This document shows positions 6,424 through 64,000 of a stretch of DNA of 64,000 nt, piece by piece. The position numbers were made by a program, and so were the translations under genes. Source of the stretch: Acetobacter sp. Lineage in GTDB: Bacteria; Pseudomonadota; Alphaproteobacteria; Acetobacterales; Acetobacteraceae. The first letter of the stretch is position 1. Each line of letters opens with the position of its first letter. The notes beneath the pieces were generated by a model. It did no database searches. It was not told the origin of the DNA and saw only the letters and a program-made list of their open reading frames with translations. The DNA is taken from the NCBI GenBank assembly GCA_012517935.1, contig JAAYUA010000055.1:1-64000 (forward strand). Reading direction: 5' to 3'.

Positions 6424-6639
6424 AAGCTCTCCTCTCAGCAAAATCAGCACCTTCAGTCTCAACAACATCAGGAGCTTGCAACAAAATTCATGCCATCATT
6501 CTGTTGCAGGAGGGATGCGCCAGCTCCGCCACAAACACAAGACAGGAAACCCAATCCTATCCGGCATAATTCTGGCTGAACCGCATATCTCTGATGCATG
6601 CTCTCCCTGAACTGCCGGAGAGAGGAATAAGTTGCATCG

Positions 6640-6955
6640 TGAGAAGTGGGAGGGCTTCTGTTGCCCGGTGCCCTCCCGAACCGCGCTTATCGCTTATGCA
6701 GCGACAGCGAGCACCTCTGAGTTATCGTTGGCACTTGTAATTTAGCCCGATGACGGTGGTACAATACCGAGCAAAAGGAACGATTTTACCACGCGTGTCG
6801 AGCCTGTTTCGTCCCCGCTGGTTCCCCGCCCAAAGGCCGGGAATTCTGGTGGAGACGCCGGGTACTGCCCCCGGGTCCACTACGCTTATTCTGCGTTCCG
6901 TTTATCGCCATAGCCAGGAAGAAAACTTCCCTTGCACCACCAGATTTATGATGCC
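6640..6955 (-). ncRNA. ssrA: Circularly permuted (two-piece) tmRNA, ssrA; outer boundaries approximate
   Basis: Minus strand order: acceptor piece ending GGACCCGGGGGCAGTACCCGGCGTCTCCACCA (CCA at 6847-6849), a ~30-nt spacer, then mature 5' end GGGGACGAAACAGGCTCGACACGCGTGGTAAAA (G at 6816), then tag ORF GCCAACGATAACTCAGAGGTGCTCGCTGTCGCTGCATAA = ANDNSEVLAVAA* (6694-6732). GGGGACG pairs with CGTCTCC to form the acceptor stem. Confidence 0.95.
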
Positions 6956-7133
6956 CTGCCGCCCATTGCAAGGGTAACAAAGGCAATATGTCGCGTCCGG
7001 CACCAAAATTCCGTAGAGTGCAAGGCAGGTCACAGCAAAGATATTGCGACCATAAATCTTCCGGGTATGCTTCATTCTGAGCCTTCCTGCCCTTGCGTCA
7101 TGAAGACCCCGCAACCGGAGAATACGTTTTTCC

Positions 7134-29104: not shown

Positions 29105-29980
29105 TTGCTTCCCGCATCGACGTCACGGTCCATCATGACGGAACACCTCGCGCCCCAAATATCCGACATCGGCAGCAATATTTGCCCCATCCGACACAAA
29201 GGCATATCAGCCACGTCTCTTCGATCTGACACTGGTGACAATACGATGGCTTCTTTACGACATCCTGACACCCGGCACTTCCTTCCCGGCGTCATCGCAG
29301 TCGTCGGCAGTGACGGCGCGGGAAAATCCACGCTCACGGCAGATCTTCTCAATCATTTACAGCAGGAACAGGCGACCGAACTGCTCTATCTGGGGCAGGA
29401 CTCCGGCAATATTGCCCGGTGGATCAAGACACGCCCGCTGATCGGACCTGTCATTGCGCGCTATCTGGTCAAAAGAAGCGAACGCGCCCATGCGTCGAAA
29501 GACAGGAAATCCTCGCCTCCGGACCTCCTGACCGCGATCGTGATATTCCTTTTCTCCCTCTGGCGGCACTCCAAATTCAAAAAAGTGCCTCTACTGAGCC
29601 AGCAGGGTATCGTCGTGATCACGGATCGTTATCCACAGGCCGAAGTCGCGGGATTTCATTTCGATGGACCGGGGTTGGCTGCGCTGGAAAAAGGCTCTTT
29701 TCTGGTCAGGTTTCTGGCAAGACAGGAACAGCGTCTTTATCGGGAAATGGCGAATTATGTGCCCGCACTGGTCATACGTCTGAACATCGATGCAAAAACC
29801 GCGCATGAGCGGAAGCCGGATCACAAGCTTTCATCTCTGGAAGCCAAAACGAGCGTCTTTCCGACGCTGGCGTTTAATGGAGCCCGGATTCTGGATCTCG
29901 ATACGCGGGAACCCTATGCCACAGTCCTGCATCGGGCATTGGCTGAAGCACGCGATGTAAGCAGACCTGCAAAACTCTGA
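29105..29980 (+). CDS. Thymidylate-kinase-like P-loop protein, paralog 1
   Basis: VVGSDGAGKSTLTADLL Walker A, TDRYPQAEVAGFHFDGPG, LVIRLNID, ERKPDH. Start may be 29246 (MASLRHPDTRHF). Confidence 0.75.
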   Translation: MLPASTSRSIMTEHLAPQISDIGSNICPIRHKGISATSLRSDTGDNTMASLRHPDTRHFLPGVIAVVGSDGAGKSTLTADLLNHLQQEQATELLYLGQDSGNIARWIKTRPLIGPVIARYLVKRSERAHASKDRKSSPPDLLTAIVIFLFSLWRHSKFKKVPLLSQQGIVVITDRYPQAEVAGFHFDGPGLAALEKGSFLVRFLARQEQRLYREMANYVPALVIRLNIDAKTAHERKPDHKLSSLEAKTSVFPTLAFNGARILDLDTREPYATVLHRALAEARDVSRPAKL

Positions 29981-30040
29981 TGTCATAGCCGGGATTACAA
30001 CAGGAAACTTGTCGTTTATATAGTTTTCATATAAACTTAA

Positions 30041-30922
30041 TTGAAGTTTCACAGTAAGACCGGACGCATGTTTTCCCTGCGTCCCGGAGTAAATGCCTTG
30101 GGTATCAGTATGAAACTGATGTCTTCCGCGGCCGATCAGGTCATGCCTAGGACTTTCTCAGGCGAGCAGATCACTTCCACCAGCCCGGAAACACAGTACA
30201 CCCCTCTTTCGAGGGTCGTCGCAATCGTTGGATGTGATGGCTCCGGCAAAACCAGCCTGGTTACCGATCTGGTCGCCCGGCTGAACACGCAGGAACCAAC
30301 AGAACGCTGCTATATGGGGCTTGTTTCCGGAGAGACCGGCGACAAGATCAAAAAGCTTCCGATCATCGGCAAACAGCTGGAACGCTATCTTGCCGCTCGC
30401 GTCCGTCGTGCACAGGATATGAAAGAAAAGGTCCCCGGCCTTTTCTCCGCATGCGTCATGTACGGCTTTTCCCTGCTGCGCGTCTCGCATCTGCGCCGTT
30501 TGATGAAGCGCTCGGAAAGCGGTCATCTGACCATCGCCGACCGTTATCCGCAGGCTGAATTTTCGGGCTTTCACTATGACGGACCCGGCATCGATGCAGG
30601 ACGAACCGAAAGCCCCTTCATCCAGAAGCTCGCAAAGCGTGAGCAGAAACTGTATGACTGGATGGCAAAGCAACGGCCTGCGTTGATCATTCGCCTGAAT
30701 GTCGATGCTGATACTGCGCATGCGCGCAAATCAGACCATCCGCTGGAAGAACTGCGCGAAAAAACCGCAATCATGCCGCGGATTAAATATAACGGCACCC
30801 GCATTCTGGAAATCGATGCGCGCCTGCCCTACGAGCAGGTTCTGCAAACAGCACTGAACGCCATCAAAGGTGCGGTTTCTGTCGGAAATCTTTCCCTGAA
30901 CAAGGAAAGACATAGCTTCTGA
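30041..30922 (+). CDS. Thymidylate-kinase-like P-loop protein, paralog 2
   Basis: IVGCDGSGKTSLVTDLV, ADRYPQAEFSGFHYDGPG, LIIRLNVD, ARKSDH. Confidence 0.75.
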   Translation: MKFHSKTGRMFSLRPGVNALGISMKLMSSAADQVMPRTFSGEQITSTSPETQYTPLSRVVAIVGCDGSGKTSLVTDLVARLNTQEPTERCYMGLVSGETGDKIKKLPIIGKQLERYLAARVRRAQDMKEKVPGLFSACVMYGFSLLRVSHLRRLMKRSESGHLTIADRYPQAEFSGFHYDGPGIDAGRTESPFIQKLAKREQKLYDWMAKQRPALIIRLNVDADTAHARKSDHPLEELREKTAIMPRIKYNGTRILEIDARLPYEQVLQTALNAIKGAVSVGNLSLNKERHSF

Positions 30923-30930
30923 TCAGGCCA

Positions 30931-30964
30931 ATGCCAGACAGAAAGAGATTTTCCTGTCTGGCAT
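30931..30964 (+). terminator. Stem-loop between paralogs 2 and 3
   Basis: ATGCCAGACAG-aaagagattttc-CTGTCTGGCAT followed by aaatctttt. Confidence 0.55.
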
Positions 30965-31082
30965 AAATCTTTTCATGATCCAGATTTGACGGTAACACGG
31001 CTCCGATTGCTTTCGGCAAGTTCTCTTCTCCGGATCGGGCGCGTGTTTGCTCCCCTTCCATCCAGCAGAAACTGATCGGTTC

Positions 31083-31808
31083 ATGCCACCCATTTCTCCC
31101 CTTTCCCCTCTCATCGCTGTCGTCGGATGCGATGGTTCCGGCAAATCGACCGTCACGGACAGTCTGCAAAAATGGCTCGCCACATCACGGCCGACAGTCA
31201 TCTGCCATCTGGGTAAACAAAGCGGAAACATCGGCCGGGCCATTGGCCGCCTGCCGTTTGTGGGTGGTTTGGTCGAAACCAAGCTAAACAGCAAAGCAAA
31301 GAAAGTTCACTCCGACAAAGGGCCGGATACCCTGTCGGCGCTGGTGACCTATTTTTTCACCCTGCGCAGATACTGGCGCTTTCTCCGCATGATGCAGTTC
31401 CGCAGGAAGGGCTTCCTTGTTATCGCGGACCGCTTTCCCCAGATGGAAGTCCCTGGCCCCATGGATGGATGCGGCCTTTACAAGGTCACCGGTGGCGGCC
31501 TGAAAGGACTTCTGGCACGCAGCGAGCGTCAGCTCTTTGCCCGCATGGTGGCCTGCAAACCGGACCTGATCATCCGTCTCAATGTTTCACTTGATGTCGC
31601 GATTGCACGCAAGCCGGATCATAAACCAGACAATCTTGCCCGGAAGATCAACGATCTGTCGAATATCACCTTCAAAGGCGTGAAAATGCTGGAAATCAAT
31701 GCGGACCAGCCGCTGGAAACCGTGCTTTCCACTGCAAAGAACGCCATTTCCGAAATTCTGCAGGCCCGTGATGGCAACACACCTTCAGAGAGCCATGCTG
31801 CCGGATGA
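31083..31808 (+). CDS. Thymidylate-kinase-like P-loop protein, paralog 3
   Basis: VVGCDGSGKSTVTDSL, ADRFPQMEVPGPMDGCG, LIIRLNVS, ARKPDH. Start MPPISPLS. Confidence 0.75.
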   Translation: MPPISPLSPLIAVVGCDGSGKSTVTDSLQKWLATSRPTVICHLGKQSGNIGRAIGRLPFVGGLVETKLNSKAKKVHSDKGPDTLSALVTYFFTLRRYWRFLRMMQFRRKGFLVIADRFPQMEVPGPMDGCGLYKVTGGGLKGLLARSERQLFARMVACKPDLIIRLNVSLDVAIARKPDHKPDNLARKINDLSNITFKGVKMLEINADQPLETVLSTAKNAISEILQARDGNTPSESHAAG

Positions 31809-33148
31809 AAGCCTGGTTTTCAGACGGCGTCTTCCGCTCGGTTCTTCGTAATGCCTCCTATCTCGGTTCAGGAAAACTCGGTGGCACCGTTCTCAGCCTG
31901 ATCGCCCTGTCCTGTGCTGGACGAGGAATGTCGACCGCCCTTTTCGGAACACTGGTCGTCATCAATGCTTATGCCGCAGGTGTCAGCAATCTGGTCAAGT
32001 TCCAAACATGGCAGTTCATCGTTCGTTTCGGAGCACCCGCTCTGGTGCGTAATGAAAACGCCATGTTCTGCGACATCATATCCTTTTCGTTTGCCCTTGA
32101 TCTGGCCAGTGGCGCATTCGGCCTGATCGCTGGCATGGCGCTGCTGCCATTTCTGTCGCATCGGGTCGGCATCGATGACAGCGCCTTCGTGCTCGCCATG
32201 TTTTACTGCACGCTGATCCCGATCATGACAGCGGCAACCCCGACCGGTGTATTGCGAACACTGGATCGGTTCGACAGCATCGCCGTTCAGCAAATGGTCA
32301 CGCCACTTCTGAACGCCATCGGGAGCCTTTTTACCTTTGTAATGGGCTATGGCTTCGTCGGCTTCGTCGTCTCATGGTATGTTTCCGAACTGATCGGCGA
32401 TCTTTTCCTCTGGGTCGTCGCAGCGCGCGAACTCCGCCGTCAGGGGTTCCACAACGCGATGCGTCCCGGCTTGTTTGCTCCCGCACGACGGATCAAGGGA
32501 GCATGGAATTTCGTCTGGACCACCAATTTCGCGCACTCGATCTGGTCGGCATGGGGGTCGCTGAGCAACGTGATTGTCGGCGCGATGCTGGGTCCGACAG
32601 ATGCTGGCCTGTTCAAGATCGCCTCGACCTTCTTCACTTCAGCCAGCAAACCGGCCGATCTCATGGCCAAAAGCTTCTACCCTGAAGTCATGCGTCTGGA
32701 TCCAACCAGCAACAAGCCATGGCTTCTGGCCCTCCGCAGCAGCCTGATGGCTGTCGGAATCGGTTTGATCGTCCTTCTGGTTATCTTCGTGGGTGGCAGA
32801 CCCCTGATCTCTCTGGTGTTTGGCCATCGCTATCTGGAAGCCTTCAGCCTGTTGCAGATCATGACCGTTGCCCTTCTGGTGTCCATGGCCGGCTTCCCGA
32901 TGGAATCCCTGCTCTATATGTCCAGCAAGCAGAAATCGGCACTGATCGCCGAAGGCTCAGCCGCACTGGCCTATGGTGTTGTGCTGGTGATCTTCATCCA
33001 TTTCTTCGGGCTGCTTGGTTCAGGTTTCGCGTATGTCGCGGGCATGTGCATGAAGGCGCTGTTTTCCTTCATCCCCACCTTTTCCGCATGGCGTCACCGA
33101 CACACCCTGACGCATGCTCATCTCAACAGCGTTGACACTCCGGGATAA
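31805..33148 (+). CDS. Polysaccharide flippase-like (Wzx/MOP superfamily) membrane protein
   Basis: Multi-TM with MOP-like pattern; ATG overlaps TGA of paralog 3. Confidence 0.78.
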   Translation: MKAWFSDGVFRSVLRNASYLGSGKLGGTVLSLIALSCAGRGMSTALFGTLVVINAYAAGVSNLVKFQTWQFIVRFGAPALVRNENAMFCDIISFSFALDLASGAFGLIAGMALLPFLSHRVGIDDSAFVLAMFYCTLIPIMTAATPTGVLRTLDRFDSIAVQQMVTPLLNAIGSLFTFVMGYGFVGFVVSWYVSELIGDLFLWVVAARELRRQGFHNAMRPGLFAPARRIKGAWNFVWTTNFAHSIWSAWGSLSNVIVGAMLGPTDAGLFKIASTFFTSASKPADLMAKSFYPEVMRLDPTSNKPWLLALRSSLMAVGIGLIVLLVIFVGGRPLISLVFGHRYLEAFSLLQIMTVALLVSMAGFPMESLLYMSSKQKSALIAEGSAALAYGVVLVIFIHFFGLLGSGFAYVAGMCMKALFSFIPTFSAWRHRHTLTHAHLNSVDTPG

Positions 33149-60369: not shown

Positions 60370-60555
60370 GTAATGCTGGGCCTTTAACGTTTATTTACCG
60401 GTAACAAATTTTATAGAGTTTCGTAATTTTTTTCACATTTTAGATTATTGAAACATTTTATTCTCGAGAACACACCACACCTGTTACAAATAAATTACAT
60501 TCTGTTTATATAGCTCAGTGTAAATTTTTTTTGAGCAAGAAGGTCTAGAAGTCAT

Positions 60556-60633
60556 ATGAGATCCCGGGCCGTCATCGCTGGCAATTGTCATGGTGAGAGC
60601 GATTTATCCACAGATATCATGCACCGTAATTAA
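60556..60633 (+). pseudogene. Possible WcbI-like N-terminal remnant (25 codons)
   Basis: MRSRAVIAGNCHGESDLSTDIMHRN*; AVIxGNCxxE resembles WcbI-family N-termini. Confidence 0.25.
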
Positions 60634-60679
60634 AGATTACGCAGGCAGCAAAAATCTCTGAGGAACGCATCCCATACCC

Positions 60680-60985
60680 ATGAGCCAAAATTCTAAAACA
60701 AAAGACGTATTTGGCAGATTTATACGCCCCCTATGGCGGCGCTTCTGGCGACTGATTGAGCAACGCGTCACGCCCTTGGAGCAACGATTAGACATAATAG
60801 AGCAATATCTTGAAACAATGGAAATGCAAATCAATCATTTGAGAGATGATGTTGCCAACCTCAACAGCCATCGCACAGCATCTGAAAGCAAACTGGATAA
60901 TGCCATCAGAACATTACCGGCATATGGTCACTCCGTTCTGGAACTGAAAAAAGCTATTAAAGAAATACAAACTGCACGCTCATGA
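60680..60985 (+). CDS. Hypothetical coiled-coil protein
   Basis: Heptad-rich helix EQRVTPLEQRLDIIEQYLETMEMQINHLRDDVANLNSH; precedes GT2 gene. Confidence 0.55.
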   Translation: MSQNSKTKDVFGRFIRPLWRRFWRLIEQRVTPLEQRLDIIEQYLETMEMQINHLRDDVANLNSHRTASESKLDNAIRTLPAYGHSVLELKKAIKEIQTARS

Positions 60986-61012
60986 AACTGCTGCACAACA
61001 AGCCATTATAAC

Positions 61013-62233
61013 ATGACCTCCATCTCCATCATCATCTGCACTGACGGACGCCCGACGGCACTGCAAAATACGCTTTCTGCACTGCAATATCTTTACGGTC
61101 CCGATTTCGAAGTCTGCGTCGTTCGCGGCCCCACCTGTGATGGTATCGACGATGTTCTGTCGCGCTGGCAGAAGCAAATCAAAATCGCATGCAATCCTTT
61201 GAGAAATTTATCCATTTCGCGAAATATCGGCATCCAGATGGCATCTGGCGACCTGATCGCCTTCATTGATGATGACGGTATTCCGGAAGCAGAGTGGCTG
61301 GAACAGGTCATTGAACCTTTTTCAGATCCGCAGACAGGCGCTGCTGGCGGGATCGTTATGGACCACACCGGTGCGCGCCCTCAATATCTCTATGCCTCCG
61401 CCAATCGACTTGGGATGGCAAACTGCAACCTGAAGACAGCGGCAACAGACCTGAATTTTCCGGAAAGCTTCAATTTTCCCTACGTTCAGGGAACAAATAG
61501 CATTTTCCGTCGTTCCGCCCTCATGGATGTGGGATGCTTTGATGAGGAATTCGATTTTTATCTTGATGAAACAGATCTCTGCTGCCGATTGGTCGACGCG
61601 GGATGGCGTATCGCACAACTCGACAATGCGATTGTGCATCATAAATTTCTTCCCAGCCAAATCAGAACAGAAGATCGGGTGACACGGTCGCTCTATCAAG
61701 TTCTGAAAAACAAACTCTATTTTTCAATTGTAAACAATCATGGCCACTACTCGCGTGCGGAAATCAGACAGAGCATGGAGCATTTTGTTCGTGCAGAGCG
61801 TGAAGGCATAAAACATCATATCAGCAACCAGAGGCTCTCTCCGGATGATCTTGCTATCTTTGACCAAGACGCACAGCGTGCTTGGGAAATTGGTTGGGAG
61901 AAGGGGTATTCAAATACGCGACATTTTTTGTGGCAGGCTGACAGCGACACTATTCCGTTAATTTTTCCTCGCCAAAATGCTGCCTATAGCAAAGAGTGTA
62001 TAATTTGCGTCCATGAATCTCGTCATTATTCACATGAGACCATAAAACAGTTTACCGATAAAGGCTATCAAGTTCATATGATTCTACATGGAACGGGACA
62101 TAGTCGTGTCGATTTCGAAAATGGTGTGTGGATTCATAGACCTGTTTTTCTCTCCACACCCCAAGATTCCAATTTAAAGAGCTATATAAAAAACTTACAA
62201 AGAAATACGAAGACTAAAATCATTTCAATATAA
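61013..62233 (+). CDS. GT2-family glycosyltransferase with truncated C-terminal GT4-like segment
   Basis: SIIICTDGRPTALQNTLSAL, NLSISRNIGIQMASGDLIAFIDDDGIPEAEWLEQV, GTNSIFRRSALMDVGCFDEEF; C-terminal ICVHESRHYSHETIKQFTDKGYQVHMILHGTGHSRVDFENGVWIHR. Confidence 0.85.
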   Translation: MTSISIIICTDGRPTALQNTLSALQYLYGPDFEVCVVRGPTCDGIDDVLSRWQKQIKIACNPLRNLSISRNIGIQMASGDLIAFIDDDGIPEAEWLEQVIEPFSDPQTGAAGGIVMDHTGARPQYLYASANRLGMANCNLKTAATDLNFPESFNFPYVQGTNSIFRRSALMDVGCFDEEFDFYLDETDLCCRLVDAGWRIAQLDNAIVHHKFLPSQIRTEDRVTRSLYQVLKNKLYFSIVNNHGHYSRAEIRQSMEHFVRAEREGIKHHISNQRLSPDDLAIFDQDAQRAWEIGWEKGYSNTRHFLWQADSDTIPLIFPRQNAAYSKECIICVHESRHYSHETIKQFTDKGYQVHMILHGTGHSRVDFENGVWIHRPVFLSTPQDSNLKSYIKNLQRNTKTKIISI

Positions 62234-63016
62234 CATCCATTCGTATCTAGTTCCTTTTAATGAATAATAAACTTCCTCATAATTATAAACCAAATCTTCA
62301 AGCCCCTCCGGGTTCATCTTTAAATTTCCTGCATGCATAATATCAATATCCTTATTCATCACCTGAGATGCGATACTGATAGATTCCTGAGAAAACAAAT
62401 TTTCAGAAGAAAACATTGATTCATAATACAAACGATAATTGTTTTTAATAGAGTCCATAAGAATAGAAACAACATTATCTTTTTTGTTTTCAGAATTTAT
62501 AAATTCAATAAGCACATCAACATCTATATTTATTTTCTTTTCTTCTTTATTTAACAAAGAATCTTCGTCAGATGCAGACCAAATGCCCGTTTTGTTCGCT
62601 ATCTCTTCGGAAACAAACACTTTTAATTTATTTTTTCTTATTATATGAATAACACTACAATCATTTTCCTTTATGTATTTGAATATAAATGGTATTCCAA
62701 TTAAAGAATCCCCTCTCGTTGGTATTGAATCCAATGAAAAATACTTCACGTCGAATATTATTCTGTTTTTTTGCGTCTTATTCCTTATATCCTCTATATA
62801 TTCATAAAATAATTCTTCATGATTTTCGGGGTGAATATATTTCAAATGAGAAGAAATTTTTTCGGCAACAAATTTATAAAATCTGAAATCAGCAGTCAAA
62901 TCTCCATGAAAAATTTCATTACAATCTATTGCCCCATTACTTTGCAACAAATCACGAAAAACCGTCGTCCCACTTCGTTGCCGACCCACAACAAAAACAA
63001 GATCACTCCCTGACAT
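62225..63016 (-). CDS. Sulfotransferase-family protein
   Basis: LVFVVGRQRSGTTVFRDLLQSNGAIDC 5'-PSB-like motif; CSVIHIIRKNKLKVFVSEEIAN 3'-PB-like motif. Confidence 0.8.
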   Translation of the reverse strand: MSGSDLVFVVGRQRSGTTVFRDLLQSNGAIDCNEIFHGDLTADFRFYKFVAEKISSHLKYIHPENHEELFYEYIEDIRNKTQKNRIIFDVKYFSLDSIPTRGDSLIGIPFIFKYIKENDCSVIHIIRKNKLKVFVSEEIANKTGIWSASDEDSLLNKEEKKINIDVDVLIEFINSENKKDNVVSILMDSIKNNYRLYYESMFSSENLFSQESISIASQVMNKDIDIMHAGNLKMNPEGLEDLVYNYEEVYYSLKGTRYEWMLY

Positions 63017-63136
63017 TCACCATCTCTCAAAAATATTTTGCATTTTCCTTCGGCTTTATAGCATAGCCGAGTTTACAGATATTGTTAAATAATGTAAATT
63101 TTTAAAAACTGAATCCTAAAATATCCAGAGTTCAAA

Positions 63137-64000
63137 ATGCTTCGATTAATAAAATATCCGTATAGAAAATTTAGACTCCTGTACTACAAAGGGGTACGAG
63201 GGGGTATATTTTCAAATATTGTTTATTTTAGGAATATTTTGAATGGACTCATGAACCCACGAAAAGTCCTGTCTGATTATTTTTTCTTCCGGAAGCATAA
63301 AAAAAATCTCGCGGAAATGAAAATTTCTGACTTAAAAGAAACATATGATGGTCAAAAAATACCGAAAATTTTCCATTTTATCTATATGTATAAAAACAAA
63401 GAGCTTTCTTTTTCTGAAGCTATATCTGTAATTTCAGCCCAACACTTCAATAAAGGATGGAAAATAATCTTTCATTGCTACGAAAAACCAATTGGTCCTT
63501 TTGCAAATTTATTACCAAAAGATATTATTTTTAACTATGTCGAGAATTTTGATTTCTATAAATTTTCCCAGATACATCATACCGCCCATAAAGCAGATAT
63601 ATTAAGATTAATTTCTCTCCAAGAAACTGGAGGTATTTATCTAGACCTCGATACTATTTGCGTAAAATCCTTTTCAGAACTCAGAAATTTTCCTGCCGCC
63701 ATGGGTATACAGGCAGCAACAGAAGCCAGTGCTCCCAAATTATGCAATGCTGTCATTATATCAAGCATGGAATCTGATTTTATAAAAAAATGGCTCAATG
63801 AATATAAATTTTTTAGATCCAAAGGTCGTGATATTTTGTGGGATTTCCACTCTGGCGTGATCCCATTTCGAATATATATAAAAAATGATAAATTAGTCGA
63901 AATCCTTGAACATGATGCTTTCTTTTTTCCTCTATGGCACGATCTCTCTCGCATGCTTTTAAAAGAAAACAGTATGAAATATTCAAAGCATTTCCAGAAT
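63137..64000 (+). CDS. GT32-like (capsular polysaccharide type) glycosyltransferase, truncated by window edge
   Basis: IPKIFHFIYMYKN, AHKADILRLISLQETGGIYLDLDTICVKSF DXD motif; ATG at 63137. Confidence 0.8.
   Translation, partial: MLRLIKYPYRKFRLLYYKGVRGGIFSNIVYFRNILNGLMNPRKVLSDYFFFRKHKKNLAEMKISDLKETYDGQKIPKIFHFIYMYKNKELSFSEAISVISAQHFNKGWKIIFHCYEKPIGPFANLLPKDIIFNYVENFDFYKFSQIHHTAHKADILRLISLQETGGIYLDLDTICVKSFSELRNFPAAMGIQAATEASAPKLCNAVIISSMESDFIKKWLNEYKFFRSKGRDILWDFHSGVIPFRIYIKNDKLVEILEHDAFFFPLWHDLSRMLLKENSMKYSKHFQN

Follow-up and report, generated by a model that had tools for sequence, protein, structure and literature searches.

In Caulobacter crescentus, ceramide is converted to ceramide-1-phosphate by the DAGK-like kinase CpgB, and this step is followed by head-group steps, a candidate flippase and a second LptC/F/G (PMC11324152, PMC10331486). 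The corresponding region, CC_1152-CC_1168, carries the ceramide genes together with the second LptC/F/G versions, the candidate flippase CC_1166 and the lipid kinase. In Escherichia coli BL21, aasR, acpR, spt, epi and aca (yghO) have been named as dihydroceramide genes (PMC9386255), while the fate of bacterial ceramide after its synthesis, as well as its flippase, has been described as unidentified (PMC11087976). Here we describe a four-gene set in a 64,000-nucleotide stretch of an Acetobacter sp. genome (assembly GCA_012517935.1, contig JAAYUA010000055.1, positions 1 to 64,000; hereafter the window). The four genes, all on the forward strand, occupy positions 29246-33148 and encode three P-loop proteins of ~240-270 amino acid residues followed by a PF01943 flippase. 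With a probability of about 0.66, we consider them to be the YghS, YghR and YghT kinases and the YghQ flippase of the bacterial ceramide pathway, the kinases phosphorylating ceramide or a sphingoid intermediate and YghQ flipping the product. Two differences from the Caulobacter system are that CpgB has the GGDG motif of sphingosine/diacylglycerol-type kinases (PMC10331486) and no thymidylate-kinase fold, and that the annotation of the E. coli yghRST locus lists no genes of the CpgA/C/D type.

When the three window proteins were scanned against 84,980 species genomes, matches were found in many Proteobacteria, including E. coli, and in single Myxococcota and Planctomycetota metagenome-assembled genomes (MAGs). 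Gene 1 (29246-29980) is 52% identical to E. coli K-12 YghS over 217 amino acids, gene 2 (30110-30922) is 51% identical to YghR over 231, and gene 3 (31083-31808) is 45% identical to YghT over 234. The flippase (31805-33148, 447 amino acids; PF01943 match 1e-13) shares 54.7% identity over 435 amino acids with the full-length YghQ ortholog of Pseudocitrobacter. In a maximum-likelihood quick tree, gene 1 falls into a 24-row clade with YghS (support 97), gene 2 into a 20-row clade with YghR (98) and gene 3, with weaker support (87), into a 37-row group with YghT, where it belongs to a subgroup of sphingomonads and acetic acid bacteria. Judged by these comparisons, the window set is orthologous gene by gene to the E. 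coli genes, with yghS and yghR as the counterparts of genes 1 and 2, respectively, the yghT side as that of gene 3 and yghQ as that of the flippase. The initial annotation had seen in the tandem copies a local triplication; since the tree places them in three old, widespread subfamilies matching YghS, YghR and YghT, we reject a recent local event. The one-to-one E. coli counterparts (b2983-b2986) are annotated as a putative transport protein and putative ATP-binding proteins. The two arrangements differ. E. coli has yghT in divergent orientation and the set linked to spt, acpR, cerR, aasR and yghO; the window shows the order S-R-T-Q, and the ceramide genes of its genome lie on other contigs. 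The nearest complete sets of the same order were found in Sphingobium wenxiniae and Sphingopyxis yananensis. Of two congeners, G117 carries T-S-R elsewhere in its genome and G030 does not have the set; kup-hemW is kept in both without it, a pattern consistent with gains and losses through horizontal transfer.

The four genes almost certainly belong to the ceramide (sphingolipid) pathway, as indicated by their neighbourhoods and by their phyletic distribution. In E. coli C4 and BL21(DE3) the homologous block reads yghT, then yghS-yghR-yghQ-CHAD-like-ytfJ-lptF2-lptG2, then spt-acpR-cerR-aasR and finally yghO (ceramide synthase); here the CHAD-like gene is annotated as hypothetical, cerR as an epimerase, aasR as an acyl-AMP ligase and acpR as an acyl carrier protein. 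Among 5426 complete E. coli genomes, yghR was found in 4595 and spt in 4102; the function of the set is thus a question for the majority of E. coli strains, BL21 being one example. We compared 79 homologous loci, many of which are cut by contig ends. The flippase is present in 52 of them, in agreement with the expectation that the homologs would neighbour a MOP-type flippase; spt lies within ~10 kb in 27, and cerR, aasR and cerS were found in 24, 23 and 11, respectively. The spt-linked loci span Enterobacteriaceae, Rhodanobacteraceae, Halomonadaceae, Pseudomonas, Methylotenera, Sulfuritalea, Gallionellaceae and others. In L075 (11481-12236) and 14 other loci a PF05118 protein (Asp/Asn beta-hydroxylase family), possibly a lipid hydroxylase, is encoded between the kinase and ceramide genes.

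Ceramide synthase was searched for in 46 genomes holding 48 loci without a linked spt, after exclusion of four short loci (L033, L061, L067, L094), and was found in all 46, including the Myxococcota and Planctomycetota MAGs. It was also present in every genome with a strong kinase match in two random samples, 11 of 11 in the family sample (base rate 62/150) and 6 of 6 in the phylum sample of random Pseudomonadota (base rate 49/398); the hypergeometric p values, 3e-5 and 3e-6, respectively, ignore kinship among genomes that are not phylogenetically independent. In the window's own genome (G000) the pathway is scattered over several contigs, with a Rhodobacteria-type Spt on G000:C157 (522 bits, compared with ~200 for the next paralogs), ceramide synthase on G000:C55 (E 2.6e-87) and the CHAD-like partner on C161 (E 4e-37). 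Similar scattering of ceramide genes has been reported for Sphingomonadales (PMC11324152).

The three P-loop proteins are paralogs, as initially annotated. Over nearly their full length they are 46% (E 1e-68), 37% (4e-49) and 38% (2e-49) identical in pairwise comparisons, and all three contain the motifs G(S/C)DG(A/S)GK(S/T), DR(Y/F)PQ(A/M)E, DG(P/C)G, IRLN(I/V) and RK(P/S)DH. In gene 1 the P-loop GSDGAGKS is encoded at 29306-29329, the DRYPQ motif, at the place of the Tmk DR(Y/H), at 29624-29638 and the lid motif RKPDH at 29810-29824. Nearly invariant in all three subfamilies are G-x-D-G-x-G-K, the R of DR, PQ, DG, a later E, RK..H and one K; the R, K and H of the lid are invariant among 72 aligned members. 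With the P-loop, DR and lid residues thus retained, every one of the three copies looks catalytically competent. A family-specific block, "xxGFHxDGPG", had also been proposed; of this block it is mainly the DG that is kept throughout, and the F/H insert is missing from gene 3 and from most T-type proteins. In Nitrotoga and several acetic acid bacteria two kinase domains are fused in one frame, which fits proteins acting together.

Thymidylate kinase (Tmk; PF02223, TIGR00041) resembles the window proteins in fold, P-loop, DR motif and lid arginine, and genuine kinases of deoxythymidine monophosphate (dTMP), cytidine monophosphate or a similar nucleotide, possibly supplying activated nucleotides, have to be considered. 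A profile of 72 relatives retrieved thymidylate kinases from the PDB (E ~5e-7), the alignment running solely via the P-loop, DR(Y) and lid. The AlphaFold model of gene 1 (predicted local distance difference test score 92.5) has the P-loop nucleoside monophosphate kinase fold, and its nearest solved folds by Foldseek are again thymidylate kinases (E ~1e-6, TM-score 0.5-0.6 to the query, ~20% identity). In addition, RefSeq labels both YghS and YghT "dTMP kinase". However, matches to Pfam Thymidylate_kin are weak (E 6e-5, 5e-5 and 6e-7 for genes 1, 2 and 3), with only gene 3, at 29.7 bits, exceeding the cut-off of 27 bits, and all three proteins score 28-33 bits against the TIGR00041 dTMP kinase model, for which the cut-off is 83. 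The acceptor-site signature of Tmk, the PROSITE pattern DR(F/Y/H)xxS..(A/V/C)(F/Y).., is matched by none of 204 family members, all of which lack the SxxAYQ continuation, and is matched by the genome's own Tmk, as LCDRFSDSTMAYQ. This canonical tmk, for which a check had been suggested, is located on G000:C10 (E 2.5e-36). Since the scores are far below the dTMP kinase cut-off, the signature is missing and a separate tmk is present, we reject dTMP kinase identity, and the three proteins form a clade of their own outside genuine Tmk, as the initial annotation anticipated. The genomic setting also differs from that of Tmk, and among the genomes tested the presence of the family is limited to ceramide-making bacteria; nucleotide kinases of any kind are thus a very unlikely reading.

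The role first suggested for the three kinases was phosphorylation of an intermediate of an envelope glycan or of a (polyprenyl) lipid carrier; the flippase would then export a glycan. An envelope lipid pathway with a flippase is what our results point to, whereas the glycan part is not supported, because the consistent partners are the ceramide genes: among the 79 loci, spt, cerR, aasR, cerS and lptF/G (the lptF2/G2 type) recur and glycosyltransferases are not a recurrent neighbour family. The assignment of the flippase to PF01943 (Polysacc_synt) does favour a glycan, as do distant relatives that match at 57-131 bits and reside in exopolysaccharide clusters with Wzz/Wzc, a bacterial sugar transferase and a flippase. 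These relatives, NTP_transf_5-type proteins fused to a thymidylate-kinase-like domain, form a distant sister group, and a glycan setting does fit this group, which shares the DRYPQ motif. The seven genomes with such matches were not counted with the family, because the proteins are fusions or other long-branch proteins in another setting. As represented by L125 and G078, they resemble the window kinases in DRYPQ and the lid region (~30% identity); they differ in being longer than 500 amino acids, with a nucleotidyltransferase-like half, in forming a separate long branch and in occurring mostly in genomes without ceramide synthase, which was present in every tested genome of the family proper. 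We therefore regard a glycan or lipid-carrier substrate for the window kinases as very improbable. Fusions with the DRYPQ motif were seen in L125 (9854-11383), L126, G017, G067, G306 and G381, and are a second non-Tmk branch of the thymidylate-kinase-like fold.

If the four proteins act in the ceramide pathway as we propose, YghS, YghR and YghT would be ATP-dependent phosphotransferases of thymidylate-kinase fold with an altered acceptor site, and their likely substrate would be ceramide or a sphingoid intermediate. Working in series or on alternative acceptors, two or three of the kinases could yield an anionic phosphosphingolipid; YghQ would then move it across the inner membrane, and LptF2/LptG2-type permeases, where present, may hand it on in the direction of the outer membrane. 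The E. coli ceramide locus has no further gene annotated as a kinase, nucleotidyltransferase, CDP-alcohol enzyme or other head-group enzyme. Because YghR, YghS and YghT are its only phosphotransferase-like proteins, the simplest reading is that they carry out the phosphorylation, and we lean slightly towards the sphingolipid itself, rather than a soluble head-group precursor, as their acceptor. That YghQ flips this sphingolipid is probable. It is an even call whether the three kinases represent a new class of lipid kinases, acting on ceramide or sphingoid bases and unrelated to CpgB and the eukaryotic ceramide kinases; the Pfam search gave no DAGK match among the window proteins, the kinases matching Tmk-like P-loop kinases.

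The main alternative is that the kinases serve the ceramide pathway by acting on a soluble head-group precursor, for example glycerate, a polyol or a sugar, which is joined to ceramide later. Proteins of the thymidylate-kinase fold usually use small soluble acceptors, three paralogs could together add several phosphates to a head group, and the CHAD-like partner hints at polyphosphorylated ligands. Nevertheless, the E. coli locus has no annotated transferase for attaching a head group to ceramide, and the recurrent partners are genes of ceramide synthesis and lipid transport, which makes this alternative unlikely. It is also conceivable that the conserved motifs have a role in regulation or in the ATP-dependent handling of lipids instead of phosphotransfer, for instance in a regulatory complex on the flippase. 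While the overlap of gene 3 with the flippase gene and a heteromer that the fusions and the three paralogs could form would suit such a role, all subfamilies have kept not only the P-loop but also the DR and lid residues needed for phosphotransfer, and we consider this reading hardly likely at all.

Several points weigh against the assignment of the four genes to ceramide phosphorylation and export, beyond the kinship of the sampled genomes mentioned above. Most genomes with ceramide synthase do not have the kinase set (~50 of 62 in the family sample and 43 of 49 in the phylum sample), and the set is therefore not needed for ceramide itself. Co-occurrence in acetic acid bacteria and sphingomonads is weak evidence, because ceramide synthase is common there anyway, and in the window no ceramide gene adjoins any of the four genes. 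The nearest solved relatives of the kinases phosphorylate nucleotides, most of them onto a phosphate and not a hydroxyl, and three paralogs exceed the needs of one ceramide-kinase step. What genome sequences can offer is orthology, catalytic residues in all three proteins, strict co-presence with ceramide synthase and linkage to spt, cerR, aasR, cerS, lptF2 and lptG2 in many lineages; sequence alone cannot tell the substrate of YghR, YghS and YghT, and their activity is predicted.

With these assignments, the sphingolipid pathway becomes the definite setting of three functionally uncharacterized E. coli genes, of which RefSeq labels two as dTMP kinase, and four candidate proteins can be named for the handling and flipping of bacterial ceramide after its synthesis. 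If our proposal is true, YghR/S/T, YghQ and LptF2/G2 would constitute a phosphosphingolipid export pathway of most E. coli and many Proteobacteria, lost in K-12; and if the kinase activity is true, ceramide phosphorylation would have arisen on at least one further occasion, in an unrelated fold. The openly available sphingolipid papers that we found make no mention of yghQ, yghR, yghS or yghT, and priority is uncertain. Loss of yghQ in K-12 led to a twofold higher minimum inhibitory concentration of chlorhexidine (PMC8170033), and K-12 knockouts of yghR, yghS and yghT were among those in a silkworm screen, without follow-up (PMC9278758). Null phenotypes in K-12-type mutants are to be expected, because on our proposal K-12 is without ceramide. 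The K-12 locus (NC_000913 3129043-3134823, L110) has kept yghO, yghR, yghS and yghT and is missing the spt block, which roughly three in four complete E. coli genomes have; its yghQ is shortened to 355 codons and adjoined by IS5.

The CHAD-like family constantly accompanies the kinase/flippase set, with members in 42 of the 79 loci. Its proteins are helical, ~274 amino acids long (for example L111:21055-21876), and most have no Pfam assignment of their own; PF05235 was matched by 4 of 27 members, at best with 2.6e-4. The name is tentative, because a PDB search with the partner gave no sequence match and no structural match that was convincing; E. coli YgiF (CYTH-CHAD) came no higher than rank 21, with a TM-score of 0.36. 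In the window's genome the gene lies beside ftsZ (G000:C161:27977-28756, L140).

The likely start codons of genes 1-3 were chosen by comparison with relatives. The open reading frame of gene 1 is open from TTG 29105, with ATG 29246 as its likely start; those of genes 2 and 3 span 30041-30922 and 31047-31808, with likely starts at ATG 30110 and ATG 31083, respectively. Gaps of ~130 nt and ~160 nt separate genes 1 and 2 and genes 2 and 3. The sole overlap is the ATGA at 31805-31808, read from the sequence and correctly recognized at the outset, in which the flippase start overlaps the gene 3 stop. A scan of the locus for promoters and terminators gave signals no more frequent than expected by chance. 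With 55-56% G+C, the locus does not differ from the window, where its nearest neighbours are a YqhD-like alcohol dehydrogenase gene and hemW.

Elsewhere in the window, a permuted tmRNA gene of the alphaproteobacterial type is located at 6603-6975 on the reverse strand. At 60400-64000, 27 kb from the kinase/flippase genes, G+C content drops to 31-48%, and the open reading frames resemble a family 2 glycosyltransferase, a sulfotransferase-like protein and a second glycosyltransferase; this segment is probably the start of a surface-polysaccharide island.

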